Source: Owenia fusiformis (taxonomy: Eukaryota > Annelida > Polychaeta > Sabellida > Oweniidae). Taken from it: a DNA stretch of 64,000 bases. Numbering within the stretch: the first letter of the stretch is position 1; every line of letters begins with the position of its first letter. Below are positions 1,600-55,700 of this stretch, in pieces. Below the pieces are notes generated by a model. The model was not told the origin of the DNA. It searched no databases and worked only from the letters and a program-made list of their open reading frames with translations. The DNA lies in contig CAIIXF020000008.1 of the NCBI GenBank assembly GCA_903813345.2, positions 29,762,005 through 29,826,004 on the forward strand. The letters run 5' to 3'. The position numbers and the translations under genes were made by a program.

Positions 1600-2048
1600 A
1601 CGGGAGGTATAACTGAGTGGGAGGAGCTTTCAGCTGACAATAAAAGACAAAACAGTAAAATGGGAGGAGTTTCAGCTGAGTGGGAGGAGCTAAAACTGAA
1701 TGAAAGGAATAACAGTTAAGAGTAAATTGTTACAGCCACGGGGCAGGTAAACAGGTGAGTGGGAAGAAGTTCCAACCAAGTGAGAACACCTGAAATTATG
1801 TTACAGATGCAAAACACCAACCATCGAACACCAACCACTGAGTTCCGAACACCATCCACAAAAAAAAGTTGGAGACCATAACAATATGTCATCACTTGTG
1901 ATAAGGTGACATAAAATTACAGACAAAGGGGAGCTAGAGATCAGTGGGAAGAACTTAAGATGAGTGGGAGGAGTTACACATCTGAGTGCAAGGATTTAGA
2001 TTCATGAAATGAGTAAGAGCTTGGTGGGAGGAGTTTCCACTTGGAGGA
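1600..2048. repeat. GTGGGAGGAG interspersed minisatellite
   Basis: AGTGGGAGGAG(C/T) recurs about eight times at uneven spacing (near 1616, 1660, 1679, 1759, 1950, 1966, 2025), interrupted by a family A repeat. Confidence 0.7.
1799..1917 (+). repeat. Family A dispersed repeat
   Basis: About 120-150 bases. Consensus parts: CAAGGCATTAACATGCAAAA, TGTCACCACCTGCCATTTGT, CACCATCCACAAAAAA, GAGACTATAACAATATGTCA, and a terminal hairpin CCACTTGTGGTGATGACATA. This copy lacks the left third. It sits inside a stretch of GTGGGAGGAG minisatellite. Confidence 0.8.
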
Positions 2049-2054
2049 AGGAGC

Positions 2055-2221
2055 CCCCCCCCCTGGCCAAAAATTCTTTCAAAATCATGCAGTTTTTTAC
2101 CATTCTGAGCACTTTTTAATTATTTTTGCCATTTTTTGACCAAAATTGTCAAAAGTGAACCTCCTCTGGAATTTTCCAAAAATTGACCCCCCCATTGGCA
2201 AATCCTGGCTACGGGCCTGAG
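2055..2221. mobile_element. CGTAGCC-type MITE (family B) beside ATG2 exon 30
   Basis: Contains TTTCAAAATCATGCAG and ends CCTGGCTACGGGCCTGAG. Its right end is 26 bases from exon 30, just inside the intron past the donor. The left end is C-rich and truncated. Confidence 0.8.
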
Positions 2222-2247
2222 GTGTTAGAGATGAACACTAAAGATAC

Positions 2248-4486
2248 CTGTATACAGCAGAGGGAAAATGCTCCGGAGCCTTGAGTTGGTCCGTCTTGCC
2301 CATTGGCATTGTAAAATAGTTGTCCTTTATAGATATCGGATCATCACAGAATTTTCTAATTGTTGGTTCACCATCCTTTGACTAAAAAGAAAGAATCAAA
2401 CATGGCATTAATATGACAAGATGTAACCACCTGGGTGCAAAGTAAAACTCACAACCCCAATTGGACCATGCACTAATAGGGCAGTTTTATGTTTTGCAAT
2501 TTTTAAAAATCCCTCGAAGCCATCAATTTTTGATATATACTGTATAAGTGGTGTTTAATCCGAGGGGTTAATTTGCCGAATGGTCAAATTTTATCATTTT
2601 CTTAATGACAAGAAACTTTTCATCGGATAACATAATGAAGATATTTCCTTACCCTGCGCGCAGAGTCTAGTTAAACTACACTCTGCCTAGTAGAGACTAT
2701 ATTTCAGTTTAGTAGCCCCGCCTCCACGACGGGTACCGGTGACAGTTTGGGTATAAATTACTTTTGACCTAGACGCACTGACCTTTCTTCCACCAATCAG
2801 CGAGCTTGAAGAAACATACGCCAAATGCGTTCTAATAAAATATGCGCATGTCATTGGTCAATTCCGGGCTCAGCGATGACGTCAGAAGGAATGACCATAT
2901 ATAGAACGTCGGTCAAATTTTGCCGACGAACACTGATTGGCGCGGTGAGTTCACAGGTTTATTTTAGTTTGAAAGAGTGAAGACGAAGCTCTCTTTTAAG
3001 AAGTGAAGTCAAACGAATGCAAAGGGTAATATTTCCTACACTTAATTTTCAAAACATGGCAGAAATTAGGCAAAGGCCAAATTAAATGATTAGGCAAAAT
3101 TACCATTTATATTGTAGCAGTAATTGAAATTGAGGAATAAAATTCAAATATGCCAAACAAATAGGGAGAGGAGTGTACAGCACATATATACCACTTACAG
3201 TATTACCATGTACCTGTAAACCTAAAACCTGAATAAAAAAAACAAAAAACAAACAACAACTTACAGTTATTCCAAGACCAGGGTCATCTATCACACAGAA
3301 TTCCTCATCACTGCTTCTCTCTGACTGATACGGACTTGCACTGATAGATGTCTCTAGTGATGTCTGATCATGTGACACGCCCATATTTGGTGATGTGTGC
3401 TTTGTGGCCTCATCAGGGAAGAAAAAAATCTCACTTGGTTTTGCTTGGTCCCCTTCTGTCATTTCTTGAAATAGAAAAATCGCTTTTTTAATCATTTACT
3501 CCTTGAAGTATGTAATACTTGATTGAAAAATTGTCATGTTGTTCACATTCATGAACAAATTGTATCACAATATTAAACCAGAACAACGGCATTTTTACAA
3601 ACGAAATATATAGCAAATATCATAAAATAACACACAGAAGAAGTAATATGCTTTTTTATAGTATTCACATGCCAAATATGAACAAAATCGCTCCACTACT
3701 TTTCGAGTTAAGGTAAAATACTTTAAAATGGTGGCCATTTTTCAAAATGAAAAAATGTTGTCCAAATGTCCACTGTTGCGAAAGAAGGTAGGGGGTGGAT
3801 CGATTTAACACAGAACTATTGATTTTAAGGCAATTTCCCTCAAAATAATTTTATTATGGAAATACCTTGACCACTTGTCTGACTCTTTGGACTTGTTTCT
3901 AGCATAGCATCTGCCATCATGTCATGTACAGTCTCCATGTGAGAGTCCGTCACTGGACTATCTGATATAGATTCTTCACTCTCCTAAAAATACATATCAC
4001 TACAGGTACCTTGTCACAAAAATGACAATTCCTCTACAGTGGAAATTAACTCATGGAAATGATACAGAGTAAATCCAATACAAATGTATCTTAATCCTTC
4101 ATATTGCTCAGCCTATAAAACTTTATATTAAAGCCACACACAGACATTTTACCTTTTTTATATACATTTTTTATATTATAAAACCCCAAAAAGTAATAAA
4201 TATGACACTGTGTTAATTAACAAATTAAGTTAGATCAGAGAAGTATAGTGATATTTTGAATTAGAGTCTAAAATCCTTTCAAAACTTTATAATGAAAACA
4301 CAGTGTAAGTTTTACCTCCAAGTTAGTCTGACAACTGGTGGTTGACTCTCCAGGTGGTTTTGTAAGAGTAAGATCCCCGTCATTTGCAAAATACACAATC
4401 ATTTCCTGGAGTGCTTGACATGAATCTGCGCACGTCCTTATATGGATCACATTATTGGAAGCCCGTAGCTCTGTTTTTGGATATCG
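2248..4486 (-). CDS. ATG2: ATG2 exons 27-30 (residues 1358-1564; CAD, LIR and WIPI-binding region)
   Basis: Exons: 4316-4486, 3866-3983, 3265-3464, 2248-2381. Exon 27 encodes SNNVIHIRTCADSC, the CAD motif that names the central ATG2 domain. Exon 28 is an acidic and Ser/Thr-rich linker. Exon 29 ends with SSDEEFCVIDDPGLG. Its FCVI core after acidic residues matches the LC3/GABARAP-interacting region known in ATG2A/B (EFCIL there). Exon 30 encodes DNYFTMPMGKTDQLKAPEHF, equivalent to the WIPI4-binding segment. The donor chosen at 2246-2247 keeps AVYR; an alternative GT lies a few bases upstream. No further ATG2 exon is visible between 1 and 2247. Confidence 0.9.
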
Positions 4487-13400: not shown

Positions 13401-16400
13401 ACAAAACGCTGAAACGTGATCATTTCCTTCATTCATTATGGACTATTTTAAGGTAATATTAGCTTTGTATGATGCAGGAAGCACCAACTGATAGATACTC
13501 ATCGAAAGGATGCATCGATTTACAAAATGTGACATGTTTTCTGCATTTTAGTGTAAGTTCTCTTTTATCGCCCACTATATTTTTGATTTTTTTCTGATAT
13601 ATTCGTTAATATTTGGTCATTCCTCATTATTTCTTGAACTCTGTGAAGTGGGGTGGGCGCTTATTAGGGGTGGGCCCTTAAGACGGCGATAACGGTATTA
13701 TGATTTGGGGAAGATGTACATGGAAGAGATTTTTATTTCATGATGGTGATTTCTATTTCATATTTTCATTCAAATTAAATAATTCTGTGTTCAATTTCTT
13801 GCATTTCTATATAACATTTAGACCACTACATTAGTATGTTTGTTCACTTAATTCCTTTCTTCTTTTCCACTCCAATTTACATTTCAAAATGTATTTTATT
13901 ATTACAACTTCATATTCCCTACCTTCAATGGAGAGCAGCATGTGAGTTTTCCTTTTGCAATCGCAACACTGACACAAAGTTTACTTTGTTGTTGACGTCT
14001 TTCAGCTCGTCGCTTTCTTTGCTGTTTCTGTTTTTGGTCCATAATTGTATAACCGTGTTCGTCACTACTTTCAGAGTCAGAGCTTGATTCTGGAATTCAA
14101 TAGAAATGTCACAAATGTTTAAATCTGAAAACATTCTTCGTAAATTTCCCATCAAAGAAATAACCATTATGATGTCTTATTTTACCTAAACAAAATATAC
14201 ATTAAGAGTAACTGAGTGAAAAACAACTCACCATACTGTAAAGCTGATCGACACATAATGAACCTGTCTCTATGAGCATCTTGACTCATTAGCTGTGTAG
14301 CCAGGTCTAGGCCCCAGGGTGGCTGCATGTGCATGTTGGAGCCCTGACTCGTCAAGGGGGAAGGAGCGAGGGCCTCCCACATCAACAAATCATTGTTGAT
14401 CCTGGAAATATATACAAATTTTAATGATAACAAGGCATTTACATTCAAAATGTCACCACCTGCCATTTGTTAAAGATGCCAAATGCTGACTGCTGAACAC
14501 CAACCACCAAACACCATCCATAAAAAAGTAGGAGACACAACAATATGTCACCACTTGTTGTAATGACATAATAAAACTTAATGAAAATGACAAAACAATA
14601 TTTCTGGTATTAGTCCAGTAAGTTGTACCTAGGGAGAGATTGAATATTGGGTTTATCCTGAGGGAAGATATTATATCTTTGGGATGACCTTATTATGCAA
14701 TGATTACTTCGATATTCATAACAAAACACCCTACGCTATCTTAAACATAAAAATATCGACTTATACAAACATTGTTCTACAGAAATAATACAATACTAAA
14801 ATTCGATTTTTTTAATTGTATGAAAAAAGAGTTTGTAGAAAAAATATGATTTTGCTGTATCGAGATGGATATGAAAAACCATGCAAAATGTGTCAAAATT
14901 GACCTTTTAAACTAGCTCACCTGTTGTATAGAAGTTCATAGAAAGCCTTGGTTGGAAATACTGCATTGACGTTTGGAAGAGTAATGTCAATAGTCATTAG
15001 AGTGTTGGAAATCGACTTTTCCACAAATTCTTGTATTTCTTTCTTATCCCCTGGTATTACCATCTGTAAAATATGAAGGTTATGTACTGGGAGATTTTGG
15101 ATATACATGTAGGTTTTATCATGTGGGAAGTATCAAGAAATTGAGAAAACATGTGAATTTGTATATTAGTTTTATCCAGAGTGAAATATCCATGTCACCA
15201 GTGAAAGCATCTATAATATAATTGTAAACATTGTAAAAATCATTATGCAATACATATTGAATAAATCATAATAATTTTTCTTTTAAAGTCAATGTTTATA
15301 TGGCCATGTTCATCATTATGATCATGAATTAAGAACTCCCTGTTCATATCTGGAATGTCTATACAATCTCATGTCATTTACATTATATGCACATTTTTGA
15401 TTACATTCTTGATGTAATTCCACTCCTTTACATAATTTGCCATTTCAAAGTGTTAACACATGATTCATTATTTTGTCTTAAGGGTCTCATTTTCTTTCAG
15501 GACGCACTCACCTCATCTCCCTCGTGGATCACCTTCTTTGCTGAAAATGGCGACGGATCTTTCTTCGTGAATTGACATGCTCCATTTAGCGAATCAAAAT
15601 ATTGTCCAGTGTCATCAATTTGAGGAGTGTCATCTTCTAACACTGAATTATTTTTTGGAAACATTTTTATCACAATTCGTGGCCAATCAAATCCTTTGTC
15701 TGGTATTGTAAAATCGTCAGTTTTGGCGGGACTTATCCTGGCGAAGGAAATTGGTGGTTGACTAGGTGCTTCTTGAAATAAGCCTAGAATGTAAATAGAA
15801 CAAGGCATTAACATGTAAAATGTCATCACCTGCCATTTGTTACAGATACCAAATGTCAATTGCTGAAAGCCAACAGCCACCGGGCGAATGCCAAACACAA
15901 AACATCATCCACAAAAAGGTTTGAGACTATAACAATATGACACCACAAGTGCTGGCATTACAATACAATTTAGTAGGGGTGAGACGACAACCCGATGAGT
16001 CGAGGACTCGCGGGTTTGGGGCTTCGAGTCGAATCGAGTCGAAGTTGATGAATCGAATCATTTTCGAGTTGAGAAAAAAATTCGAAAAAATAAAAAAAAT
16101 CAGAAAAATACTGTCAATATGCATGTTTTTACTCGATATTGCGTTGAATATATAAGTTTCAATGACTTGGATATGCTTATATTAAATTATTATATTGTAT
16201 GTACACATAAATGAAAGAATATATGTAATAAAATCAGAATAAACTTACGACGAATTGTGTTTGTTTATATTTCCGGCTTTCCACCATTGACGCATTAAAA
16301 ATACGAACGGTCAAAAGCGATGTTGTTCGCACTTTCGCGACTCGAAACGGATTCGAAACTCGAATCGTCATTTTCTGACTCGAATCGGATTTGACTCGAA

Positions 16401-19400
16401 TCGGATTTTTTCGACTCGTCTCACCCCTACAATTTAGCATGTAAAAACTAGATGTCTATTATTTAATACTTTATTCCTTGCCAATTCTACTCTATGTTAC
16501 ATTTTAAAACATGACCACTGCCATTAACTATGTGCCAGTTTACTTACAGTATTCCTTGGAATTTACCCTCCTTTTTACTCTTAGTAACAATACTAACAAT
16601 ACAACATATGGAAATAAAATAATAATAATAAATAATACACTCAGAACTGATGGACCTTTAATAAAAAAAATACCATTTTATCCAGCATCTTTTTCTTCAA
16701 ATCTCAGGAAATCAATCTGAATTGTTTGAAAATAAAAATCTTAGAAAGTTTAAGTAATATTTTAAACACCCCATTGTTTAAAGATTGGTTCTTTTACCAT
16801 GTGCATCTTTACAAATAAACTCATATTTCTGGGTCGTTTCTGATGTTTGGTAGCTCGTCTGAAAGTCAAGGTCAGAGAGTTCAAGGATGAGAACCTCTTT
16901 ACGTAACGATCTCCTCCACCACGGCATCTTGTCGATACCTTGTCCCGTTCTAAGATCTGGGATCGGAAACCTGTAAAAAAGCACTATATATAGCGAAAAT
17001 AAGAGAATGTCAATGTTTTTCCAAAGATTAGACAAGGCATTAACATGCAAGATGTCACCACCTGCTATTTATTAAAGACGCCTGTAAACCGCTGTTCACA
17101 AAAAAAGTTTGAGACTAACAAAATGTAACCACTTCTTGTGGTAACATAAAAATGGGCCAGATCTATTTTTGTGAACTGACTTCTAGTAATAGTGGAATCA
17201 ATTGGTGCAAGGCCCCCATAGGGACCTTGCGTTTTCATACTAAAGTTCGTTTTGGAATTTTTTCTTATTGTTTTATGTATTTCAAGACATTTTAGAGACA
17301 GGGCCCTTTTTCTAAAGCCCTTTTTAGAAAAATAATTGAGATTACAGAGGATACCCATTATTACTGCTTTTTAACACATTGTGAACAGAAAATTCAAATT
17401 TCAAACTCTTTATCTCACTATAATAATTCCCCAATGGAGAATGGAAGTTGAGCAACCAAACTTGGCACAAAGTTGGACCCTAAGATAAGCTCTAATCTGA
17501 GGGGTTTGATCTTTTGTGAAATCATACATTTGCCTAGCAACCACATAGCAACCATCTAAAATAACACATTTTACAATATAGATCCACTTAATATATGCTA
17601 GGATGCTATAAGAGTATTACAAAGAGTCTTCTTATCCTAAAATACAATAATTCAAACATATTTACAGAAGTGACATCACCATGTTCTATTATCACCATGT
17701 TCCTATTATATGCTCACTTGTATGCTTTTGAATCCCTTCCACATTATTTCTTAACATACAGAAATTGTATTTAAGCATAAATGATGCAGTTATGCCTGAC
17801 CATTTTCCCTAACAACTTCCTAGCAACGGCTTAAAATAATGCTTAAATTTGCCTAGCAATGACCTAGCAACAGCTTAAAATAAAAATCTCACTATATTTC
17901 CACTATTATGTAATATGTACAGGGTGATCCAGAAGTAACGTCAAAGATGTTGTAATTTCAAAAGTATTCATCAGATCTTCATGAAATTTGGTATACATGT
18001 ACCCACAACATTTCTGAGTTACCATCTCAAAGATTGGAATTCAATCATTTCATTGGTTGAAATTATGGTTGCTATAGTAACCCGATATCGCGTAACCCGG
18101 GGCAAATTACTTAACGTGTAATGCGTAATCTCAAAATATCAACAAGATCTGAAATTGTTATATCCTCAACATTTTATTTCACAACAATATAAATCATACA
18201 ATTGCACAGTTACTAATAATAGTTCATTCTACATAATTGCCACCATTTGCAACACATTTCTCATGTCTGGATACCCATTCCTTGAACACAGAATTAAATC
18301 CATTAGAACTCATTCCTTGTAGGGCTAGTACTACGGCATTTTTCAATTCCTCACAGGATTGAAAATTATTTCCACTAAGGTTTCTTTTTAGTTCCCCATA
18401 CAAATAAAAGTCACTGGGGGCAAGATCAGGTGAATAAGGGGCATGTTCAAGTTGTTGAAATCCAAGTGTTTGGACTGTGTTGCTGGTCAGGATTGCAGTG
18501 TGCGTAGGGGCATTGTCCCAATGCAAGATCAGATAAACTGCTGCAGATGTCCGGGACGCTTTTTCCTCAGGGAACGTTGAAGATCACGCTTCAGAACCTG
18601 AAAAACAAATGTTTAATGGTTGTTAAACCAGTTGTTTCATTGATTGGATTTGGATTTGAATCATGGCCATGGAGTTATAATTATATTGACAGTGAACAAC
18701 ATTTAAATACTTTAATTTAAAAATAAAATTCACAGTATGATGTATTATTAGAACAAATGATATCTTACCTTTGCAATGTAAACGGCATTAATTCTCTGGC
18801 CAATGGGAACAAAATGGGTTAACACCATTCCTCTAATGTCAAAGAATGTCACAACCATTTGTTTCTTTTGTGGAATTCCTGGTACTATTTTAGGCTTGGT
18901 TGGTGTTGGGGAGTTGTCATGTTTCCACGATGAACTTTGTTGCGTGGTCTCTGGGATGTAGAATGATAGCAATGATTCGTCACTCGTAATGATCTTGTTA
19001 AGAAAGTCATCTCCATCTCTCCGATATTTTGCAAGAAAGTCCCTTGAAGCCTTAACACGCCGGTCTTTCTGCTCCTGTGTCAAGTCATGCGGCACCCATT
19101 TAGCAGACACCTTCTTTAACAGACAGTTCTTTGTCAGTATCCGTTGCACAGTCCCATAGCTCAGATCGTGTTTTTCAGCCAATTCTCTGATAGAAATTTG
19201 CCTATTGTCCATAACATCAGCTTCAATTGCTTTGATGGTTTGATCATCGAATGACGACACTGGCCTGCCTCCTCGCTGCTTGTCTACCACTTCATCATAT
19301 CCACTGGAATACTTGTTAAACCACCTGTAAATGTTTCTCTCAGCAATGGCAGCTTTACCATATGCCTTCTTTATCTGTCTTATAGTCTCTTTTACACCTT

Positions 19401-31709: not shown

Positions 31710-31740
<31 letters not shown>

Positions 31741-37700: not shown

Positions 37701-40700
37701 TATCGATCATTAACCACTGGTACCAAGGCATGTTCAGTGCAACTGGTTTCAAATGAGAACCACCAAATTTCAGCACATGGTTTACCCAGAATGCAATTTC
37801 CTGTAGCGGATCGGGAAGATCATCTAATATCGCCTGTGCTTTTAGAAGGTTATCCTTATATGTTTTATTGTCAATCATTTCATTTATGTTCTGTACAAGT
37901 TCATCAGGTGTGAATGTATTGAAGTCCATAACAAGGCCATAGCCTCTAGCCTTTGCACGTTCAGCATTATGCATCTGATCTAAGCCTATGGGAAATGTGA
38001 TCATTGGTACAGCATGGGCGACACTCTCTAATTGGCCACTGTTACCACCATGTGTGATGAATAGTTTAGTGTTGGGATGCCCTAAAATATCATTCTGGGG
38101 CACCCATTCCATTAAGATCACGTTTGAAGGTTTATTTGATGGTGCAATACCTTTGTATCTCATTATTACATGTTGTTTTATCTGTGAAAATGCCTCCATC
38201 AATTTTGACATTATGTGATCAGGAAATGAATTAATTCCTGAGCCAAATGTTAAAAGTATTACTCCATGATTTGCCTGGCCAACAAATGATGAAAGATCTC
38301 CCGTCAATGGCGAAACCTGCTTTGCTGCAAACCCACCTATTATCTTATAAGCGGGGTGTGACAGAAGGGGATATTCCAATACATGGTGTTCCATCATGAC
38401 TAACCACATCTCAGATTTCCGATGTAAATCACCAACACAAATCAATGGCTTATCAGGAGCATATTTTCTCAATAACTCTTCAAAATAGGAATGCGATATA
38501 GGTGGTGTTATGGTATAGAAAGCTAAAGTGCATAAAAAGCTGCTGATTCGCTGCATAAAGGTCATGTGATCAGATCCTGGGAAAAAGAAATGTACTTCTG
38601 ATGAGGGTAATGAAGGAATAGCTGCATGCCATGGCTCAGGAATAGGTGCGAGAGTTATAAATGGAACATCATGTCGGTAGGGTATGATATACTGAATGCG
38701 GTTCATGTAAAGCCCATCTAAAATCATCAAATCAAACTTTGCATGAGCAATTCTTACTGTCATTTCCTCATCTGCGAGAAGCCTTTCTTGATCAGCATAA
38801 GTTTTTTCTTTCACTCCTTTCATTGCTTTTAGTTTATCAAGTAATCCCATATCAAACGCAACTTCAGTCATTTTATCTTCCATGTTATCCTGTTCCCAGT
38901 ATGATGCAAAATTATAGTACCAACATTCAATCTTTGAATATTTTCCCAAAATTCTCTTCATCCTTGGTGCTGTCAGAATGGTCACATAATGTCCTTCAGA
39001 AATAAGTTTTTCTCCAAATTTGGCATGTAAGTTCACATGGTTGTAGTGGTCAAAAGGAAGAAATAATATCCTGGAGGAATCCACACTGGCGATCACCAAG
39101 CAAGAAGCTAGTAGGAACAATATAATATCCTTACACTCCATGATCACTTTATGATTCTCACAAATGTTTAAACATGACAGACAACATTCACATAAACAGT
39201 AAAAGCGCATAATTTATGCTCTAATAAATATGTCTCAATTGATAAGTATGCAATTTAAAGTACAGTACAACATTTATAAATGAACATGTACAAGACCATT
39301 TACCAAGTGCATCTCTCGAGATTTTGGTAAAAAATAAGAAAAAAATAAGTAATATGATTCAATGAAAACTTTATCCTTAAAAATCCTTTAAAATCATCTG
39401 CCGACAAAAAGGATATATCAAAAATGAGAAAAAAGTGAGATGGAACCAAGTAAGGACTACCATAAAATCATAACTGAACAATAGTTTAGGCATTAGTCAG
39501 TTTTCACCGTGAGAGCCATAAATGAATATATTACATGTATTCCATTCAAGAGAAAGTGAGAGTAAAACCATCAACCCTGAATGTGCACATGTCTTCAATT
39601 TTTTATTAGTACCTTCCAAAATGGAGGGATTTTGTATCTGTTAACACCTCAAAAATCCATTGCAACAAAGAAATCAAAACTGCTGTAGAACTGTTACTAA
39701 TGTGTTTAATTTCTAATTGAAAATTGAAATATAAAAATAATTGACTCATAAAATCCTCAATTGAACTAATCTAAAGATTTTCAACAAAAAGAGGTGTTAA
39801 ACCTTCAACTGTCTTTACAATCACAGGTACCACTGTAACAGCACATATCAAGGTTTTGACAAAAAACTATCAAAAATTTTTTAAATGGTGAGTTTTTTTT
39901 GTCATGACGTATCTGGGTTAACAAATGTATTTTCACCTGTAGGAATCGTTTGAGGTCAACCTTCATATAGGAAAGTAAGAAGATTGTGTATCTAAAGACA
40001 CTAGTATTAAAAGTGTAAATCCAAATATATCCAACGCATTAACATGCAAAGTTTCACCACCCCACATTTGTTATTATAGATGCTGAATGAAGACCACCAC
40101 CCGGCAAACACCATCCAAAAAATGTTTGAGACTATAACAATGTCACCACTTGTGGTGATGACATAAAATATACTATACTGTTCTTAGAATAATATCATGA
40201 GTAGGCTTACACAGTGGCGTAGCATGGGTATTTTGTGAGTGTACGCCACCAGTGAGTGAAGCGAACGAGCTTTGAGGGACCCCCCAGACAATTTGAAAAT
40301 GATATTGCATTTGCACAGACTGGTATCGAAATATTTGTCCGCTGTGACGGAGCATGCTATTTTTCATAAAAACACTAAGAATACTTCACGATTTATTTTT
40401 TAACTCATATGTTTCGATATACCATACAAAATTACTTACTCCATGCAATGGATATATCATTTGCGGGTAACTTTCACTTCTGTTTGAAGTCCAATTACGC
40501 TGGGAAGAAAAGCTATTGAAAATGGCGCCGGAGTATCAAACTTCAAAATATACCATTTCTTGTTTAACTTTCTAATGGCACGATATAGTAACACGATAAT
40601 ATTTACACATGGTTTCAGCATAACTATGAAGGTATAAATGAGATGTTGATGTATTTGGTCTTTTTAATTCTTTTTCTAAAAAATAATGTTTAATTTTTTT

Positions 40701-43700
40701 GTCCGCTGTGACGGAGCAGTTGCAAATGTGACGGTGAAAATGCTCCGTCACAGCGGACAAAAAATATTAATATTATTTTTTATAAAAAAAATTAAAAAGA
40801 CCCAATGCATTAATATCTCATCAATACATTCAGAGTTATGCTCAAAACATATGTTAATATTATCGTGTCACTATATCATGCCATGAAAAAGTTAAACAAG
40901 GCACAGGACGTGAACGAGATCACACCATCAAATAGGCAGACACTATGATGAACCAGGAAAACTGTTCTCCTATTATGTTTACAAAGGATGAGTCTGGGAA
41001 TGAGTCTGGGTATCGACTTAGAAAATATTGAAAATTGTAATGTCTGAAAAACTAACTCAATCACACATATTATTAAACTTCAATATCTTATCCTTCTTCT
41101 GAGAGTACAAAAATATCAATTTGTATCACAATTAATGAAGAGTATTGGCATCAAAGACAGTGCATATCACTTTGTCGGAATTGAAAAAAAAATCAATGGC
41201 AAATATTAAATGAATTATTTATACAAAAGGTTTGAAACATATCCTCCAAAACATTGCATACTTTCTTTGTCTAGACATTGAATGGTATTTCTGGATAAGT
41301 GAATTGGTGTTTATCTGGGTAATCAAGGGATTATAGTCACTCAAAGTTACTGAGCATCCAGTTTTGAGACTTCAATTGTGTTGGTGAAGTTACACATATT
41401 TCAGTCAAATTCATGCTGAGCACAACATTTTGGTTTCAATTTTATAATCTCTATACATGACCCTGGTGATGAAGAGTCAGAATCAGTCAAAAAACCTAAA
41501 CCGGAAAACTGTGCTCATTGTGAAAACTAAAAGTGAAGCAACTTTTTTCTGATATTTCTTACATCAAATGGCAGCCATCTTGTTTTTCCCCCTTCAAATT
41601 AAATTGGCGGGAAATTCAAAAATTTGAAAAAAATTTTAATTCTTAAATATATTTCAAAAATTTCTTTTAGATCCTTCATGGGTCTCAAGTTATTTCTTCT
41701 TTGTATGTCATACATGTTGCCATTGGTGTTTTTTTCTGTGATAATGACTATTTTTTGTTTGTTAAGATACTTATTTTGACTCTCAGCAGGGGGTTAATTA
41801 TGCATCAAAACTCGTGAAAAAGTAAATATTCTTATCAAATATAACTAGGACAGTAATAAAAAACATATTTCACATACATTTGACTGAGGGACCAAAAGGG
41901 CATATACCCGGACACATCCTTTCACGAACAAGAAAAAAATGTTGGCTGTGGTCATATTAATCAATAGCTCACATCTTGAGCTAAAATTTAAGGCAATATG
42001 ACAAAGTGGATTGTTTTCGATGAGAAGATTTATCAAAAAATCTTCAAAATGGCCGCCAGAAAACAAAATGGCCACCCAAAATTTAATAAGTTCTAGAACT
42101 TGATATCCCCTATCATGTACAGGAAATCCGATGAGCAGTTTTCCTGGAATGGCAATGACAAGATTTTTCAAAAAACCTTAAAAATGGCCACCAGAAAACA
42201 AGATGGCCACCTTAAAGTTAATCAGCTCTAGTACTTGATATCCTCTATCATCTGTGCGAATTTGAAGGAAATCCGATGAGCAGTTTTCCTAAATTGGCGA
42301 TGACAAGATTTTTTCGAAAAAACTTCAAATGGCCACCAGAAAACAAGATGGCTGCCACAAAAATAATCAGCTCTAATACTTGATATCCTCTATCATGTGT
42401 GTAAATTTGAAGGAAATCCGATGAGCGGTTTTCCTGAAACAGCGATGACAAGATTTTTCAAAAAACCTTCAAAATGGCCACCAGAAAACAAGATGGCCAC
42501 CTAAAAGGTTAATCAGCTCTAGTACTTGATATCCTCTATCATTTGTGTAAATTTGAAGGAATCCGATGAGCGGTTTTCCTGAAATGGTGATGACAAGATT
42601 TTTCGAAAAACCTTCAAAATGGCCACCAGAAAACAAGATGGCCGCCCAAAAGTTAATCAGCTCTAGTACTTGATATCCTCTATCATGTGTGTAAATTTGA
42701 AGGAAATCCAATGAGTGGATTTTCTAAAATGGCGATGACAAGTTTTTTCGAAAAATCTTCAAAATGGCTGCCAGAAAACAAGATGGCCACCCAAAAGTTA
42801 ATCAGCTCTAGTACTTGATATCCTCTATCATTTGTGTAAATTTGAAGGAAATCCAATGAGCGGTTTTCCTGAAATGGTGATGACTAGATTTTTCGAAAAA
42901 CCTTCAAAATGGCCAGCAGAAAACAAGATGGCCACCCAAAAGTTAATCAGCTCTAGTACTTCATATGCTCTATCATCTCTGCAAATTTGGAGAAAATCTG
43001 ATGAGCAGTTTTCTTTAAACAGCGATGACAAAAAGCGGGACGATCATAATCACGATCACGACCACGATCACGATCACGACCATGACCACGACCAGTATGA
43101 CGACTATATCCCACCGATGGTGTGATAAAAATCATTTATGTCTGTATATTTGTTATGTTTCAGTAAAGTCTGGCTGTTCTAAAACCTACAATAAGAGAAG
43201 CTAACTAAAAAGCCAATATGATTTTACATATACTGTAGTTTTAATCATCTGAATGAATTACACTGTAGGACAGCATTTAAACACTCACTTATTCCACTTT
43301 AAATGTGCAGTTACAGTAATACATGTGATGGTACACACAGTTGTAGGTTGAACATCTCTTTTTGTTAAACAACTTTATAAGTGAAACACCTTTAGAAATT
43401 GAGCATTTTATGAGTCAAATACTTTTTAATTTCAATTTTCAATTAAGCATATTAGTTAGTTATAAGACAAAATCCTTCACATTACTGTATAAACACCTGT
43501 GCTTTAGGCGCATTTAGGTTTGAAGGATGACACTCACTTTCTCTTCAATAGAACGTCATATTTATTCCTGACTCATACATTGGAAACCAGCTATCTTCTA
43601 AACAATTGCTCATAACTATTTTATGGTAGTCCTTACTTAACTTTTGTGTCATTTTGGGAAAATTAGCCTTTTTGTCAGCAAATATCATTTAAATATTTTC

Positions 43701-46700
43701 CATGAATGTACTTACTTTTTACTACATGAAAAGTCTTTGACTTTGAGACTGAACCACTACAGATATCAGGTCCAAATTCTCAGAGATGCACTTTGGGTTA
43801 GCAAATGGTTTGTGTCTTATATATTTTCACTGCTACCTTTTCATGTACACAGGTTGTACTGTACTTTAAAGTGCATACTTATCGATCGAGGCATATCATT
43901 GAGAGCAATCACTTAAAAAGTTCTGTGTTTTTATTTAGGTTGATGCTGTTTGTCAGGTTTAAATGTTTATGAGAATCGTGAAGTAATCATATATGACGGG
44001 TGAGAATATTGTATTGCTCCTATTAGCTTCATGCTGGGTGATCACGACAGTGGATTCCTCCAGGATATTATTTCTTCCTTTTGACCACTACAACCATGTG
44101 AACTTACATGCCAAATTTGGAGAAAAACTAATTTCCGAAGGACATAATGTGACCATTCTGACGGCACCAAGGATGAAGAGAATTTTGGGAAAATATTCAA
44201 AGATTGAATGTTTTTTTTTTTTGTTTTTTTTTATTAATCATCTTTATTATATTCCATAAAATACAGCTGTACAAACTTAAACAATTGCCAAAGTCTAGTG
44301 ACATTGTCGGCAATTTTGAGTGAAATCCAAAGGAATGTTATTAAATTTTTACATAATAAGTTATTTTTATGTCATGTTATTGTTAAAATAGATGAAAGAA
44401 AAAGTCAATAAAATATCATCACACTACACTCGTATATCACAAAGATGTGTAAGGTTTTTTCCCTTGGCCAGAGGGATTTCAGTTGTAACATGTTGTAATC
44501 GATTACATGTCCAAAAGATATAGACCCTGGTGGATATAATATGCTACTTTGTTCATTAGTTTCTCATTGACATCTACTGGAAATTTATTATCTCCAAAAA
44601 GTAAGAACTGGGATTGATCATGCATATTAAGTCCATCATAGTGGGTACGGATCCCTATCGTCTCCAGTCCTGCAAGTAGTGTTGTTCTCTGTTCTGTCAG
44701 CAGAGGGCATTTCAACAGGAAATGTAAAGTTGTCTGGTTTATATTGTCACATAAACATTTAGGATTAGCAACCCGTTCAAAGTTGTGTGCATGGAGGTGA
44801 GCTTGCAAGAGAAGTCCGGACCTGAGTCGGTTTAGAGGAATTTCTAGGTAGCGAGGCATGGCATTTTTTAGTTTTGACGTTGATAGGGTAGAAGCATGGC
44901 TTCCATCGCCTCTTACTATTCTTTTAAATCTTGAAATTGGCTGACCAATTCTATAATCTGGTGGAAGGTTATTCCAAAGGGCCATACCTTTAAAAATTGT
45001 AGATTTCTTAGCCAAAGCGCTTGTTTGAAGGGGAATCTTATAGTCCCTGTGGCTCCTTAATGAGCGCACTTGTATATCATTCTCATAGGACCTGACAAGA
45101 TTACAAATGAAAGGAGGAAAGTTATTATATCTTGCTTTAAAAATAAATATTTTGAGATGTTCCTCTCTTCTAGAGGATAAATTTTTCCAGTTTATTGATG
45201 AGAGAACTTTATTAGTGTTCGAGATTGAATGTTGGTACTATAATTTCGCGTCACACTGGGAACAGGATAACATGGAAGATAAAATGACTGAAGTTGCATT
45301 TGATATGGGATTACTTGATAAACTAAAAACAATGAAAGGAGTGAAAGAAAAAACTTATGCTGATCAAGAAAGGCTTCTCGCAGATGAGGAAATGACAGTA
45401 AGAATTGCTCATGCAAAGTTTGATTTGATGATTTTTGATGGGCTTTACATGAACCGTATTCAGTATATCATACCCTACAGACACAATGTTCCATTTATAA
45501 CTCTTGCACCTGTTCCTGAGCCATGGCATGCAGCTATTCCTTCATTACCTTCATCAGAAGTACATTTCTCTTTCCCAGGATCTGATCACATGACCTTCAC
45601 TCAGCGAATCAGCATTTTTTTATGCACTTTAGCTTACTATACCATTACACCACCTATATCGAATTCATACTTTGAGCAGTTATTGCGAAAATATGGTCCT
45701 GATATGCCACTGAATTGTGTTGGCGATTTACATCGGAAATCAGAGATGTGGTTAGTCATGATAGAACACCATGTATTGGAATATCCCCGTCTGTCACACC
45801 CCGCTTATAAGATAATAGGTGACTTTGCACCAAAGCAGGTTTCACCATTGACAGCGGATCTTTCATCATTTGTTGGCCTGGCAAATCATGGAGTAATACT
45901 TTTAACATTTGGCTCAGGAATAAATTCATTTCCTGATCCCATGATGTCAAAACTGATGGAGGCATTTTCAGGGATAAAACAACATGTTATAATAATGAGA
46001 TACAAAGGTATTGCACCACCGAATAAACCTTCAAACGTGATCCTAATGGAATGGGTGCCCCAGAATGATATTTTAGGGCATCCCAACACAAAACTATTCA
46101 TCACACATGGTGGTAACAGTGGCCAATTAGAGAGTGTCGCCCATGCTGTACCAATGATCACATTTCCCATAGGCTTAGATCAGATGCATAATGCAGAACG
46201 TGCAAAGGCTAGAGGCTATGGCCTTATTATGGACTTTAACACATTCACACCTGATGAACTTGTACAAAACATAAATGAAGTGATTGACAATAAAACATAT
46301 AAGGATAACCTTCTCAGAGCACAGGCGATATTAGATGCATATATACAGATACTGAAAGTTTTGACTCAATACCTATGTCTTAAAACAAGACATAAACATG
46401 CACAATGTCACCACCTGCTATTTGTTACAGATGCCAAATGCCGACCTCTGACCCCCAAATGCTAACCATTTAAAATCATCTACAAAAAGTTGTACACTAT
46501 AATATACAAATAGTGACTGCCATTGAGGGCAATAGTGTAAATTATTTCCCCGAGGGAATATCCTCTACAATGCACTATTCCCGAAGCCGCAGGCTGAGGG
46601 AATAGTACATTGTAGAGGATATTCCCAAGGGGAAATCATTTACACTATTGCACGAAATTAGGCAGTCACTATTTGTTTTATTGTATACCCTATACTGACT

Positions 46701-49700
46701 CTTGTTCCGTTTCCTCTGCGAAGGCCAAAAAGGCTTAGAAAGCCCCCTCCCCGGGTCCATTGTTAGCATTATAAGCTGTGACGTCATCAGATGCTCAACA
46801 GAAATTGCCTCTGAGACTCTCACTTGACAAATTCAATGGCGTTAAACACGCGGAATAGATTATCATAACACTTGAAATTACACAGACCTATTGAGCTTAG
46901 GGAACTTTATACACGTTGCTTATATTGTATCGTTCACGCACGTCTGTCATGGTGAACGGAGTTGATTTGTGTTTGTGCTCATCCTCCATTTTTCTGTTTT
47001 TCGTCTGCGCAGTGATGATGCGCAGACGTTTCCAAAGGTAATAAAACTTGCAATTGTGACGTCAGCAGGCAATAGTTCAAATGTATATTCCCGCTGACGT
47101 CACATTTGAGGGAATATAACTTTCCGAGGGAAATAGTAAATCTATTTCGGAACACGTGACTAGGTATTGACCAATCAGGATTAGTGTTACATATTGGGTA
47201 TATAATAACAATTAATATGACCCCACTTCTGGTGGTGACATAACAAAATTAAAACTGTCTTACCTCGCTGTATTCTGGGAGGATATTGTCAATCGGCAAG
47301 CTGAATCCACGAAGCGAATGTGTAAATGCGCGTCTGTCGAAGAGGCATTCTACGGCCTCCAGCATCCCTATAGTAATATCCAATGTCGTACTATGGTGCT
47401 TTATTGTAGAAGTCTGATTGCACTCTAACGTCAGTGGTTTTCCGATAATACTGAAAAAGAAGTAGTTTCGATTTGATATTTAACATGTCCCTTATTATAC
47501 AATTCTTTCAATCCCTTGACAGTCTCTTTTTCATAAAGGCACTCACATACATTTTTAATTTTTCATGAAGGCACTCAGTAAAATTATGATTTCTCTGCAA
47601 CCTTATGTCCAATCAAGATCATTCAAGTATCTATGTGTTCCTGACACGTTTGGGCGTCCAGGAATAACAATGTCTACCCAAAGTTTGCACGCAAAATTGA
47701 CGTAATTCATGACTGAAATCCGGAAGACAAAATGTGAGATTCACAAACAAAATTGCTTGTAAAAACTATTTACAAAAGTGTTCCAGAGTCTTTTATCTAC
47801 TTGGCTAGGTTTTATTTGAAGATACATTGCCTTATTAAGCAGGTAGAGGGGCATACAGAACACAGAAGCAAATGCTTTGTTGAAAAGTTTCTATATTTCA
47901 GTTTGAACATGTTATTACATGTCACATATAGCCTAATAGGCCAGTGTTTTATATGGGGATGGGGATTATATGTACTTTACTTGTTTACATGAACGTAAAT
48001 CATTACATGAAATCTGCAGTCTTCCAGGTTTTATCTGGGTTTGTATTGTCTTATTGGGGCTTTTCGACTTCATAACAAACCTTACCTTAATGGATTTGTG
48101 TCTCGGGAACATTTTTGTAAACAGTTATTATAAACAATTCTGAAAGATATCACATATTTTTGTCTTTCCGATTTCAGTCATGAATAACGCCAATTTTGCG
48201 TGGAAACATTGGGTAGATGTTATCATTACCGGATGCCCAAATGTGTCAGGAACACATAGATACTTGAATGATGTTGAGTGGACATCAGGGTGCAGAGAAA
48301 TCGTAATTTTACTGAATGGCTTCACGAAAATGACTTATATGAAATAATATAAAAACTTATATAGAATATATTGTCTTTTATAATATATATCTTTGCGATA
48401 GGGACCCCTTTGGTATAAGAATATAGTATTAAATTGAGATAGATTAACTAATGTTTCTGTAAGAATTATGTTGAAATCATGTAAACCCAATAATTGATAT
48501 AACTTATTGGGTTAAAGTAGTGATCAAGTGACTCCAAACCGCACACAACTCAAATAAATATAAAAATAAACAGGGTTATATGCCACCTTTATTGACATAA
48601 TTTTTTTTAAACTTTTCTGCATACAGGCAGACACATACACAGAATAAGGCACATGTACATCATTGGGAATACCTACCCTAGGTGATCATGGGGACAGGCC
48701 TCTGAATAAAGCTCCCTCAGTTCACAAAGGTCAATCCCTACTGCATTGATCCCCTGTGCTTTCCCAAAAAACACCTCTGACATTTCTAATAATTTTTCCT
48801 CGGATGATTTCCCCGGGTCTATGGCATCTGATGGGGTGGGTGGAGGATCTTCGTGGAGGACAACCAATGAGAAATAGCTTAGTTTGAGTTTGTAACGGGT
48901 TAACTCAGATGCAGGGTCATCCAGCAGTTTTTGTAGAGTATCTGAAAACACAAATAATGTGCTTCTAATTGGAAGAGTAATCTTGAAAGATATTTTGGTC
49001 AAAGACAATATTAATCAGGAAAAAATTAATCACACATTGTAAAATAAAATAAAATTATTATCTACATGTGATGTTTCTCATTCTGTGATTCATTGAACAC
49101 AGATCACATGACATTGATTTCATTGTGTTATTTCCCTGTGATGTTACTGTTTGTTGTTTGTTAAGCCTAAAAGTGCAAATATTTTAACATGTTTGTTCCT
49201 GATCCTCGTTCTAATGAATCGGGCAAAATTTCCTACTTCTGTTAATACCCCTTCTCACTTGGGGAAAATTTATAACGAAATATACAAAGGAGTTTCCAAA
49301 CAGAACAAATAACTGTACAATATCCCATTAACTAGCTTCTAATTTCCTATATACCTTTCTTTCTATGTCTTGGTTTTCTTGCTTCTCTTGGAATCGATGT
49401 TTGGAAAGGTGCGTCTCTTGAACCAGTGAAATAACTAGCATTTCCTGGAGTATAGCGGTACCCTGAAAATATATGATAATTCAATGATTTAAAATATAAG
49501 ATAATTCAGTGATTGAAAATATATGATAATTCAGTAATAAAAAGGATGCAATCAGTTAGATCCAAAGTTTTCATCAAGGAATGTTTTCGGAGAGCTACAC
49601 CAAAATATTTTGAAAATTTATTGTTGGAAGTCGTTTACAGACACGAGGTCAACACTCTGAATTTACTAATTAGCTATTTAGCTATTCAATGTTAAGAGAA

Positions 49701-52700
49701 AGTGAGGATTGAATGACTAATCTACAACTATTTTTGATGTTGAGAGTACTGTTTATCAATTTAAAATTATTCTTTAATTCATTCTTCTGTTCAATTTTGG
49801 ACCATGCTTTGGGATAGTTGGGGTTTGTTTCCCTTATGACAGTGTACTCTTAGATGTTTTCTTTTTCTTGCTGTTACAATTACTGTCATTTTTCTTTGGC
49901 AGTTATACATGAATATTCTAATGCAACATATGCTAAGCTGTATTCTACCCATCAATGTACTAATAAATTTCTATTTGTGTAATTGATCCTTTTGTTTACG
50001 AATTTTAACTTATTAATGCAATCCAATAAATTAATTAGTAGTACCTTAACAAGACAAACAGGAGAGTTAAGTCACATGGGCATAGCATAAACTATTATAA
50101 CATATGACATTATGTCTTATATAACAATGGTTAACAGAAGGATGAATAAACTGCAGTTAGTCTCTTCCAAAAATGGCGGATGTCATTTTTTCTGTTATTG
50201 ATAAATCTTCAATTACAGCTAAACTACATAAACTATTATGCAAAATATGTCCACACAATGGTGTATTTATTACATCATCAATACATACATTTTAACATAT
50301 AGACCCCAGTGAACTTATAAATTCTATAAAATGAAACAGCTACCCTATTGATATACTTAACAAGCACTAAAGTATGAACGAATTGCATCATAGACTACCC
50401 CTAAGTAAACACAGGCAAACAAATTCCCAAAGATTGTTGATCAAATTGATTCCTCTTATAGTACATAACATAAAAGGGGTCATAATATTTATCAATGAAT
50501 AAATTGAGATACCATCACGAAGTTTGGGACTTTCTTGAGAGAAATGCACGAAGAAGGAATTGGATTGGCTGACACAGATTATATGTTCCAAGTATTTAAC
50601 AAACATTAATCATTACTTGATGCAAAAAGTTAAAGGTAACTTTGAGATAAGGAATTCATGCTTAAAAAACACAAATGCATAAAAATAAAATATAACAATC
50701 GAAAACATAAATAAGATTTGGATGACCAAATTTTGGACAAATATAAAAGAGATCTGGTGGATTAAAGAATCAAACAATAATACTGCTGAAGAAAAGGGAT
50801 TGTTGCATAAAATGGCATTGAAGCTTATCATATGTTTTGTTATACTAAAGATATCAGTATGTACACATATTACTACAGGTAATCAATCATGTTTTTTACT
50901 TTAATTTTTACAAAATTGATTATTTAAAACTCGCGAGGAATAGTGTATAAGACTTCAACTTTACTTTAGAATAAAGGACCTGCTCTAATATAGATGAATA
51001 AATAGATGGCAGTGTTAGCTTTTGTTGGACTAGAATGCTATACTTTATATGGAGTAAACTGACAAAATTCATTTATCATATGCATTTCTTCATTATTCAG
51101 TGTTTGCGCTAGCCATTTAAATTTCTGAGTCCCACGGACGCAACCCATTTGAAAAATTTGAGTCCCCATCTAATTTTTTTGCGTCCCTCTTATTTCTTCA
51201 CAAAGTTCAAGAAAATATTGTGAAAGTGAAAATAAAGTGGGCGATAATAGAGTGCTTACACTAAAATGGGATAAAAATGACATATATTGTAATTTGATGC
51301 ATCCTCCCGATAAATATTTATCACTGGGTCCTTTGCTCAAATGCTCAAATTAAGAGTTTTGTTTTCACATTTTACAAACTTGCGATCTTGAAGGTCATGT
51401 CAAGGTCATGAAGTTTTGCTTCTTTTTATTAACATTTTTCCTTATTCTGAAGACTTTTAGATGAAAAACCTCGATCTATCATTAAACAATTAACTTGATG
51501 TATAACATTAGATCAATATATAATGGTTCTTAGTGGAAATAATAAAGATAATCGTGAAAAACAATCGTTTCAATTTGTGGGGCACCACAGGGGATTTCTG
51601 CAATATTGTATGTTTTGATCTTCCATTTCGATTGCGGCATTTTCCGGAATATATCGGAACCAATCAAAATCCATGTCTCATACTGGAAACCCTGTTAATC
51701 TTCGGTAGCCATGATAGCCAATCAGATTTGTCGATATAAATATACCTGGATCATTGCTCGTATATCAAGGTAGTGAGTTTGAAAATCTTGATGAAAATCA
51801 TGTTTCACCGCTACTGTGCTGCAGTAAAAGTTATCTTGATGCAGTTTATAATTTTTGCGTCCTAGGGACGTAAGTTGATTTTGATTTTTACATCCAACCT
51901 TCTGAAATTTCCGTAAAAATGGCAAAAAACGGCGTCAACGCGAACACTGATTATTCATACAATTTTGATCACAGGCCTCCTAGACTTTGAATCACATGGT
52001 CATCAATTCCAACGTTGCCGACCTCGTTCCTTCCATCCGAACAATGTTCCAACGATGGAATGAGGTCAGCAACACCAAAACTGATGCGTGGATTGAAGTC
52101 TATGAGTCCTGGATTAGATTAATGTAAAACACTATTTGTCTACAACGAGACATTGATGACATGTAGATTCTGACCTTACAATCTGTAACTGTACAAATGT
52201 TACTGTACAAATTAATTTCCTATGTGATATATTTTGTGGACCTTGAACTTTAACCTCGACATAATGCCTCTATTTCAGAAAATGGGACTCAACTACTATA
52301 TGGCAATCCCCCGATAGCTCGTAGCTACACCAACAAAAATTCTGACAGCAATTATGCATTTTTATCATCAGGGAACCCAGTTCCAGTTTTTGGAAAAATC
52401 ATAAAATGGAAAATGTGGCATCGAGGCTCAAAACCTGACCGTGACGTCACATGGCTCCAAATATGGCGACGTACAGGACAGGGATTTCTCTACAAGTTAA
52501 TAACAGAGGATCCTTACACTCCGAATATAGACAATTATGAAGAATATATTCCGGAAGATCCAATGCTGGTTATTCCTGGGGATAGCATTGGGGTTTTCTA
52601 TGGACCCAATTTGTCTTTAGGGTTGTCATATGGCGAGCGGCCATGTATGTCTCCACATGACTCCCTGATAAGAGATGTTGGAGCCACTGAACCAAAAGTC

Positions 52701-55700
52701 CCGATTGGGGGTGTTCGCGAATTTCATCAATCTTCAAACTGTTATGTTCCCTCACTACAAGTCACAAGTAAGCCATAAATTTGTTACACGGCCTGTTTTA
52801 TTTAACTTTTTCAATCAATTATCATATTGAAATAAAAAATAGTAAATGTTGTCACGATGCTTCAGTAAATTATCAACAAAAATAAAATTTTGAATTTAAG
52901 TTTGACAATGTTTGCTTACAGTTAATGTTACTGGAAATTCAACACAAATGACTATACCAACAAACAATGTTCTAACATCTACAAACAATGTAACAACATC
53001 TGGTACCTCTACAACAAATGCTCTTATGACAACATTTGATTCCATGACAACATATGATCTTACGACAACAACCGATGAAAATACAGCATTTGATTCTACT
53101 ACAACAGAAGATGCAATGACAACATCTAATCCTGCTACAACAGAGAATCCAACTTTTTTAATATCTGCTTCCACAACAGAAGCTTATTCAACTGCAACAT
53201 CTGGTCATACTGCAACATCTATAATGGCTAATCAAACTACAATGTCTGACCCTATTATAGCAGCTGATAAAATTCTAACATCAGATCCTACTTTAACACC
53301 TGATCAGATAACAACATCTGATTCTACCTTATCATATGACAAAACAACAACATCTGATCCTACTTTAACATCTGATCAAACTACAGCATCTGATCCTACT
53401 TTAACATCTGTTCAAACCACAACACCCGATTCTACTTTAAAATCTGATCAAACTACAACACCCGATTCTACTTTAACATCTATTCAACCTACTACATCTA
53501 TTCAACCTACATCTGATCCTTTTGTTACATCTGTTCAAACTCCAACATCTGATCCTACTTTGACATCGGATCAAACTCCAACATCTGATTCTACTTTAAC
53601 ATCTGTTCAAACTGTAACACCTGATTCTACTTTAAAATCTGATCAAACCACAACATCTGATCCTTTTGTTACATCTGATCAAACTCCAACATCTGATCCT
53701 ACTTTAACATCTGATCAAACTACAGCATCTGATCCTACTTTAACATCTGATCAAACTACAACATCTGATTCTACTTTAACATCTGTTCAACCTACAACAT
53801 CTGATCAAGCTACAACATCTAATCCTACTTTAACATCTGATCAAACTACAACATCTGATTCTACTTTAACATCTGTTCAACCTACAACATCTGATCAAGC
53901 TACAACATCTAATCCTACTTTAACATCTGATCAAACCGCAACATCTGAACTTATTACAACATCTGCTCTAATTACAAAACCTTTAAGGCGAGAATCAAGA
54001 ACGTTCACAAAGCAAGGCAACATGAAACTCACAGATGGGACACAAATGACAACAAAATCTCAACTGATGTGCGCTAACAAATGCACCAATAATCTAAGAT
54101 GTTTCAGGTTTAGCTTTTCCAAAATCCTGACTGAGAAAAACTGCATAATTTCTACCAGCCAATACGGATCAATAGATATAGATCCAATTTGGATATATTA
54201 CCATGTCAACAAGTAAATGATTTATAATGATATTATGATATTGGTACTGTATTTCAAAAATGTCACAATATCATGATATGGATCTACTGTAAATATGTAC
54301 ATAAATTCAAGAGATATTGATACTAAATTAAGGAGCAAACATTTCAGAAAATAAAATATTAGCTTATAAATCAATTATCCCCCTCTGTTAAAATAGCATG
54401 CTGCCCATGGGGGAAAAGAGAGAAATCTGCAAGGAGAGATTAAATAAAACACAACCACTTTCATCATTGTCAAACTACATGTATCTATAAGATATAAATG
54501 ATATCCTATAGTTTATGAGTGCCATGATTTTTATCCACAAATGGATATGATACCTGCGTGAGCATGAAAAATCTGGAAAAGCTGACATAAGCATACACTG
54601 TTATTTAATTTGACGGCCGTTTTAATTTGGCGGATTGATGACAACTGCCAAATTACGTCTCAGACAATTTTGCGAATTAATCCCCAGGGATTCCCTTGCA
54701 GGATAAAAACATTTGAAAATAGCCAAATGAAATGTCAATATTGAACTATTTTTGAAGATCTAGATCCACTGCTGGTTATTTTTTGAAAAACGAGAGTACT
54801 GTTTGCATCTTTGTATGATCTTCTAATATCTGCATTTTACCGATGGGTAAATCCACAAAACTAAATAGCAGCCAAAATTTCAAAATTTGCCTATTCAGGC
54901 CCAATCCGCCAAATTAAAGAAACTTACAGTACATGTTCATATTAAAAGCAGAAAGTGAACACCAAATGCCAGCCACATACAGTGAAACCTGTGGAACAAG
55001 AACATCAGTGCTTATTTAAAAAAAAGTGTTCCAATTTGAAGTAGTTCTGCAAGCAGCGATTCATTTTACAATAAGATAATGGGCGAAAGAACTTTAAAGC
55101 ATGTTCTATTAATGGAATGGTTCCATTTACAGATTTTACTGTATAAAATGGTGCCTATGACAATATGTCACCATTTCATGGTGGTGACATAAAATGTGGT
55201 ATTGATTCTTACCTCCTGTTGTTGTGGTACTTGCAGATTTGCTACTGACGCTACTAGAGATTGATGACTCCATATCACTGAAGGTATCAGGATGGCTCTG
55301 ACCAATGGAGTAGTAGAATTCTTCATCATCATCTGAATCATCTATTGTAAATATGTATACATAAATAAAAATATAATGTATATATCTTCAAACATATAAG
55401 TTTATTGTTCTTATAGAGCTAGCTTTACATAACCCAACCCAGCACACCAGGGCTTATCAACCACTTCAAGTTTAAACATTTTCAATTACCAGTATACAAT
55501 TAGGTTAAAGGAAATTTTTTTTTTACTATGCTATAAATATGGATAAATATATCTTTTGACAAAGCACTCTCTTACAAAATGGGCAAATTGTGTGCATTAA
55601 AATAATACCATATTCTCTCTAAAGAATTCACATTCATCAAAAAGTGCATGTGCAACTTTTATTACAACTACAGTCCCACTGTGTGCTTTTTAGGAAGAAT

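Follow-up and report, generated by a model that had tools for sequence, protein, structure and literature searches.

Family A repeats in the ATG2 introns of Owenia fusiformis: a probable HINE family with one orientation and a local closeness to splice sites

Why should the copies of a small repeat within one gene all point the same way, and why should so many of them lie next to an exon? This question is raised by a stretch of 64,000 nucleotides from the annelid Owenia fusiformis (contig CAIIXF020000008.1, positions 29,762,005 to 29,826,004; hereafter the window, numbered from its first letter), which is crossed over its whole length by a minus-strand ATG2 gene. The repeat, family A, has ten copies in this 64-kb window, all of them in ATG2 introns and on one strand. 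Our results indicate that family A is very probably a minimal non-autonomous Helentron (HINE) of about 120-160 bp. We are likewise confident that its closeness to splice sites is real in this ATG2 gene, and we regard the joint claim, HINE identity together with a real local placement bias, as likely on balance. The kind of element is ordinary and known, its placement is locally significant, and the cause of that placement is unexplained. Every test of family A described below refers to this one window and this one host gene.

Copies and anatomy of family A

Starting from four copies picked by hand, an iterated nhmmer search with a cut-off of E<1e-3 returned ten intervals, all on what the initial annotation had read as the plus strand; the best opposite (minus-strand) match in the window reached only E=0.53. 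Because 46386-46504 and 47213-47243 are the halves of one split copy, H, these intervals amount to nine copies. The tenth, copy B, was weak in the profile search (E 0.04-0.06); its local score against copy E was 24, compared with a maximum of 19 over 40 simulated 64-kb sequences, and its scores against the other four queries were 14-18. The original count of eight copies is therefore raised to ten, and the single orientation stands. The copies, given on the strand that carries them when they are read as HINEs, are as follows.

1775-1914, minus strand: copy A, in intron 30; 5' part intact, 3' end degraded; nhmmer 1778-1914, E=6e-29; gaps of 449 and 333 nt to the splice sites.
2401-2440, minus strand: copy B, a fragment of the 3' end, lying 19 nt before the acceptor of exon 30.
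14431-14571, minus strand: copy C, full-length, lying 29 nt before the acceptor of exon 19; nhmmer E=3e-36.
15801-15960, minus strand: copy D, with a degraded 5' end, lying 17 nt before the acceptor of exon 17; nhmmer 15801-15956, E=1e-35.
17033-17149, minus strand: copy E, with both ends but a shortened middle, lying 62 nt before the acceptor of exon 16; nhmmer E=3e-24.
37366-37427, minus strand: copy F, 5' half only, deep in intron 12; nhmmer E=8e-14.
40032-40166, minus strand: copy G, full length, deep in intron 12; nhmmer E=2e-32.
46386-47243, minus strand: copy H, in two halves with about 0.7 kb of other sequence between them; its 5' end lies 20 nt past the donor of exon 12, and the two halves matched at E=6e-28 and E=3e-6, with junctions placed by eye.
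54950-55192, minus strand: copy I, apparently split, 5' end 20 nt after the exon 9 donor; nhmmer 55145-55192, E=2e-9; far half (about 54950-54990) by eye.
56689-56811, minus strand: copy J, which has diverged and lies 92 nt before the acceptor of exon 7; the nhmmer match at 56751-56811 went from E=2e-3 in the first round to 2e-8 in the last.

Clean end-to-end copies are C, E, and G only, the rest being truncated, degraded, diverged, or split. The initial annotation had every copy run from CAAGGCATTAACATG to TGATGACATAA, a description that applies cleanly to these three alone: in its terms the right end of D is degraded, A lacks the left end, F and I retain mainly one end, and H and J are split and diverged, respectively. 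The exact 15-mer occurs at only 2 places and gave 10 matches with at most three mismatches (3.46 expected). Copy J is backed at its 5' half only; its 3' end at 56689 scores 12, below the chance level. The insertion that splits copy I, a split read by eye, is presumably mariner-like. Beside copy D, at 15968-16430, lies a miniature element with TAGGGGTGAGACG inverted ends and CTAAATTG on both sides (by eye), which we take to be hAT-like.

The copies of family A are old, and pairwise identity among five of them (A, C, D, E, and G) is 0.80-0.85. The 100-nt flanks on each side gave local scores of 7-14, obtained without a null, in the ten pairs of these five copies. Reading such low scores as unrelated flanks, we take the copies as separate insertions, and on the same reading we dropped the idea that the same-strand copies arose by duplication of a larger unit. 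Exact element patterns had no matches in collections of viral contigs and genome contigs, neither of them aimed at animals and both therefore little informative. Rfam gave no match at the gathering score, and a literature search with six element pieces of 14-15 bases returned a single match, by its title a paper on microtubules in C. elegans.

Read across the ten copies on the minus strand, the parts of the element come in the order T^TATGTCACCAC, a short loop, GTGGTGACATA, a GT-rich variable middle, CAGGTGGTGACAT, GCAT-GTTA-ATGC, and CTTG^T. Here, TATGTCACCAC is a 5' subterminal repeat that is followed, after the short loop, by its own inverted copy GTGGTGACATA, and the 3' subterminal repeat before GCAT-GTTA-ATGC is also read as GGTGGTGACAT. 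The subterminal inverted repeat ATGTCACCACC is a perfect 11 bp in copy H and is also obtained by majority reading across copies. For G and E, the predicted fold contains both the 5' hairpin and the 3' palindrome. A T precedes TATG at all seven intact 5' junctions, and this 5' T may belong to the element; a T also follows the 3' end at 6 of 7 junctions, the 3' end of J being uncertain. By eye, no shared flank of the kind expected from a target duplication is visible in the copies with both ends, and GGTGTTTGG-like units stand in varying number in the middle of A, C, and D, with none in E.

In the passages of PMC7492417 and PMC4067079 that describe HINEs, the order is a 5' subterminal inverted repeat, an inverted repeat, a microsatellite, a 3' subterminal inverted repeat, and a 3' palindrome, with a TT target and no target modification. 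Because the layout of family A follows this published order in its repeats, palindrome, and TT target, we read it as a HINE. A canonical Helitron (5'-TC, CTRR-3', A/T insertion) was rejected, as family A starts with TATG or TTATG and ends with CTTG before T. We also rejected a miniature inverted-repeat transposable element of the terminal-inverted-repeat type; the inverted repeat of family A is subterminal at the 3' end and is followed by a 3'-terminal palindrome segment. A scan of the window for HINE-like layouts gave 12 candidates, compared with 2-4 in each of four simulated sequences. One of them, 17052-17147, is copy E, the other family A copies being too degraded for the scan settings.

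Three observations count against the assignment. The perfect 11-bp subterminal pair is present in only one of six copies, the exact match in A, C, D, E, and G being just 5-7 bp long; the predicted fold of copy C has neither hairpin; and the fold z-scores are modest, from -1.5 to -1.9.

Orientation and distance to splice sites

All ten copies have one orientation (two-sided P=0.002; 8 of 8, P=0.008). HINE anatomy puts their 5' end on the minus strand, so that the detected copies are uniformly sense with ATG2. They had been described as antisense, which, on the HINE reading, names their ends backwards. Since a single gene extends across the window, gene direction is inseparable here from chromosome strand. 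One could picture that replication, not transcription, sets the orientation, with insertion into one strand at the fork regardless of the gene. The bacterial IS608 needs lagging-strand replication (cited in a passage of PMC4778049), and the family A copies far from exons are also on the same strand. However, replication offers no reason for the closeness to splice sites, and we consider this explanation improbable.

Distances were measured on a gene model with 32 exons and 31 introns, the latter totalling 57,034 bases with a median length of 512. The chained model that it was corrected from, once translated, matched the ATG2A chain 8kbx_B of the PDB in five stretches (E=6.1e-210). A re-check of exons 7-15 against ATG2A gave an overall E of 1.8e-8 with two weak stretches (i-E 0.005 and 0.03), which take in exons 7-9 and the end of exon 11 through exon 14. 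The exon list is a home-made model whose splice matrices were typed from general knowledge, and it was corrected by hand on reading the sequence: spurious exons were removed, exon 9 was re-phased, and exons 24-26 were added by eye. Exons 10 and 24-26 stand in the model without printed homology support.

The gaps from the ten copies to the nearest ATG2 splice site are 17, 19, 20, 20, 29, 62, 92, 333, 7097, and 9836 nt. Six of the ten copies thus lie at most 62 nt from a splice site, compared with 0.71 expected under uniform placement (P=1e-5) or 1.00 expected when each copy is kept within its own intron (P=1.5e-5); these simulations used a 140-nt element for every copy, a length from which H, I, and B depart. 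When the weaker copies B and J were left out, 5 of 8 remained within 62 nt (P=7e-5). Among control repeats only 3 of 25 were this close (Fisher P=0.007 against family A). The initial annotation had given five of these gaps, and all five were right (exon 16, 17, and 19 acceptors: 62, 17, and 29 nt, respectively; exon 9 and 12 donors: 20 nt each). The bias tied to splicing that it suspected holds within the window, but with the sign of the orientation reversed to sense.

Two side observations concern gaps to splice sites. The donor-side copies H and I have an identical 20-nt gap to their donors, and both introns begin GTAAGA. A 35-nt inverted match (91%) joins 15071-15105 with 449-483, and 15071-15105 lies only 7 nt before the acceptor of exon 18, a smaller gap than that of any HINE copy.

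Several points weaken the case for a placement bias. A threshold-free statistic is weaker (P=0.00017; eight copies, P=0.002). The 28 control repeats were hand-picked, differ in length without length matching, and may include pieces of one element; three of them (W1, tr59, and q1) were dropped for exon overlap or a position outside the modelled introns. In addition, the pattern was noticed first and tested afterwards, so that the P values are optimistic.

It is quite possible, if short of probable, that we are looking at ordinary HINE insertions whose same-strand, exon-adjacent pattern is a striking chance cluster in one gene. Only one gene and ten copies are involved, the pattern was seen before the test, and the 3 of 25 other repeats show that closeness to a splice site is not confined to family A. 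Moreover, the Cg_HINEs of Crassostrea gigas occur in both orientations genome-wide, in a section of PMC7492417 that does not sort them by gene direction. What speaks against chance are the figures for 6 of 10 and 5 of 8 copies within 62 nt and for 10 of 10 in one orientation. Since several families or thresholds could have been picked, the true odds are less extreme than these P values.

The distances also bear on an introner-like origin, in which the insertions would have made their host introns. Family A elements are small, non-autonomous, in one orientation, and near splice sites, and a likeness to introners had been suggested for them. However, the nearest element end is 17 nt from a splice site, no end coincides with one in any of the ten copies, and at least 349 nt of intron lie beyond the far end of every copy. 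The introner reading fails on this last point, and published introners, as described in part of PMC9860276, bring or recruit splice sites at their own boundaries. We therefore regard such an origin as extremely improbable.

Candidate branch points and possible causes

The branch-point motif yTnAy has a usual spacing upstream of the acceptor. At 15-60 nt it is missing from 8 of the 31 model acceptors and is therefore no requirement. At exon 17, both yTnAy candidates, 25 and 33 nt upstream, lie inside copy D, and TTAAT overlaps the palindrome loop of the element. With only 17 nt between copy D and the exon, the branch point predicted from the motif is probably located in the element. For exon 30, a candidate inside copy B has the better spacing (27 nt) and a host candidate lies at 15 nt, so the predicted branch point possibly comes from the element there as well. 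The acceptor of exon 19 has no yTnAy candidate at 15-60 nt, and the three candidates at exon 16 are all host sequence, with AG between. The TTAAT branch point proposed in the initial annotation is thus retained for exon 17 and possibly exon 30, but not for exons 19 and 16.

Target preference alone could in principle give rise to sense copies at acceptors, if elements insert at TT or T-rich sites and the polypyrimidine tract is T-rich on the sense strand only. TT and T-rich sequences are HINE targets in the relevant passages of PMC7492417, PMC4067079, and PMC2374699. The introns as a whole have a T content of 0.34, which rises to 0.40-0.50 over the final 40 nt ahead of acceptors. However, weighting by T content put only 6-10% of insertions within 62 nt of a splice site and predicted only 53-55% sense copies, and 6 of 10 remained significant at the most generous setting (P=1.3e-4). 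Target preference also leaves the two donor-side copies and the sense copies deep in intron 12 unexplained. We consider it unlikely as the sole cause.

Selection against antisense copies, through a cryptic 3' splice site (TTTGTTACAG) in that orientation, appears very improbable. In antisense, D and H3 do hold ...TTTGTTACAG followed by AT, with acceptor scores of 4.9-5.0 (2.8-7.5 for the real acceptors of the gene). Nevertheless, the best antisense scores, from -1.0 to 5.0 with none in I, are no stronger than those in sense (1.1 to 6.3), and antisense acceptors are no stronger than those of random 140-nt windows (medians 3.5 and 4.0). After these tests of T-rich targeting and cryptic sites, the causes that remain are chance, strand-linked insertion, or selection.

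As a mechanism we tentatively favour a cause in two layers, insertion and selection. The Rep/helicase that moves family A presumably comes from a gene elsewhere in the genome. In the first layer, a single-strand-cutting Helentron enzyme would prefer the T-rich sense-strand DNA of a transcribed gene. In the second layer, selection would purge insertions closer than about 17 nt to a splice site and keep those that spare splicing, with the element end now probably supplying the branch point at exon 17 and possibly at exon 30. The gap floor of 17-20 nt, found on both the acceptor and the donor side, fits the removal of closer insertions. For the insertion layer, passages of PMC4778049 report that Helraiser cleaves single-stranded DNA only, favours transcribed genes, and has an AT preference that is strongest toward the 3' flank, and they suggest that transcription or replication yields melted DNA. 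Given these properties, insertion into the sense strand is conceivable. The weak effect of T-rich weighting, both near splice sites and on orientation, tells against this layer, which is for that reason not demonstrated.

A broader reading, which we regard as decidedly doubtful, is that Helentron-type elements enter the displaced single-stranded sense strand during transcription at exon edges, where polymerase slows. Orientation would then record gene direction genome-wide, and element ends would accumulate immediately beyond the shortest distance compatible with splicing. The TTAAT palindrome loop would repeatedly become a branch point of existing introns, so that insertions directly upstream of the polypyrimidine tract survive. 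If the pattern holds genome-wide, rolling-circle transposition would be tied to the transcribed strand and to the position of splice sites, and branch points would arise time and again from a common small transposon, with no new introns made. If the pattern fails genome-wide, this locus simply holds old HINE copies of an ordinary kind. Among the titles of the matches listed, none reported that copies of HINE, DINE-1, or Helitron elements follow the direction of genes or sit at splice sites, and in the part of PMC6417741 that touches the subject, Helitrons and polypyrimidine tracts are separate sources of binding sites.

Finally, the window holds other features in and around the ATG2 introns. 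Three tandem duplications (59787-60144, 61115-61989, and 1312-1470) span ATG2 acceptors: exon 3 has three 118-bp units with the acceptor and 81 nt of exon, exon 2 has two units of roughly 385 bp with the acceptor and 85 nt of exon, and exon 31 has three 53-bp units with the acceptor. The remaining features are as follows.

18227-19479, minus strand: mariner/Tc1-type transposase pieces within a larger nested inverted-repeat region, 17189-22878.
31787-34498, plus strand: a 904-aa stop-to-stop frame with leucine-rich repeats and a fibronectin III domain, in ATG2 intron 12.
37594-39213 and 45089-46462: two UDP-glycosyltransferase frames (Pfam UDPGT, E 1e-72 and 1e-52) in an inverted duplication with arms of 94-96%, in the 23-kb ATG2 intron 12; the second frame continues into HINE copy H.
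42018-43031: about seven 145-bp units arranged in tandem, within intron 12 of ATG2.
52906-54213, plus strand: a frame that matches a PAN domain and contains a long repeat region spaced at 18/36 bp.

Comparison with known systems

Four known systems were compared with family A, each from part of the published account. Introners (PMC9860276) are likewise small and non-autonomous and have a link to introns. In contrast to family A, which lies inside longer introns, they make the intron, with splice sites at or beside their ends.

The Helraiser/Helibat elements of bats (PMC4778049) share the rolling-circle class. They combine single-strand cutting and the lack of a target duplication with a preference for transcribed genes and AT-rich 3' flanks. 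Unlike family A, the bat Helitrons have 5'-TC and CTRR-3' termini and an A^T target, and the passages on them describe no splice-site pattern.

DINE-1/INE-1 of Drosophila (PMC2374699, PMC4067079) resembles family A in its subterminal inverted repeats, a short inverted repeat near the 5' one, a 3' stem-loop, and a TT target, and hundreds of intron copies are reported per Drosophila species. The words orientation and strand are absent from the main text of PMC2374699. The Drosophila elements differ in having 13-bp subterminal repeats of other sequence and a conserved core.

The section of PMC7492417 on Cg_HINE describes longer tandem-repeat arrays in the middle of the element, which family A lacks, and does not sort copies by splice distance any more than by gene direction. 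In other respects Cg_HINE is like family A: both have a 5' subterminal repeat with an adjacent inverted copy, a 3' subterminal repeat, a 3' palindrome, and TT or T-rich targets; Cg_HINE makes no target duplication, and none is visible by eye in family A.

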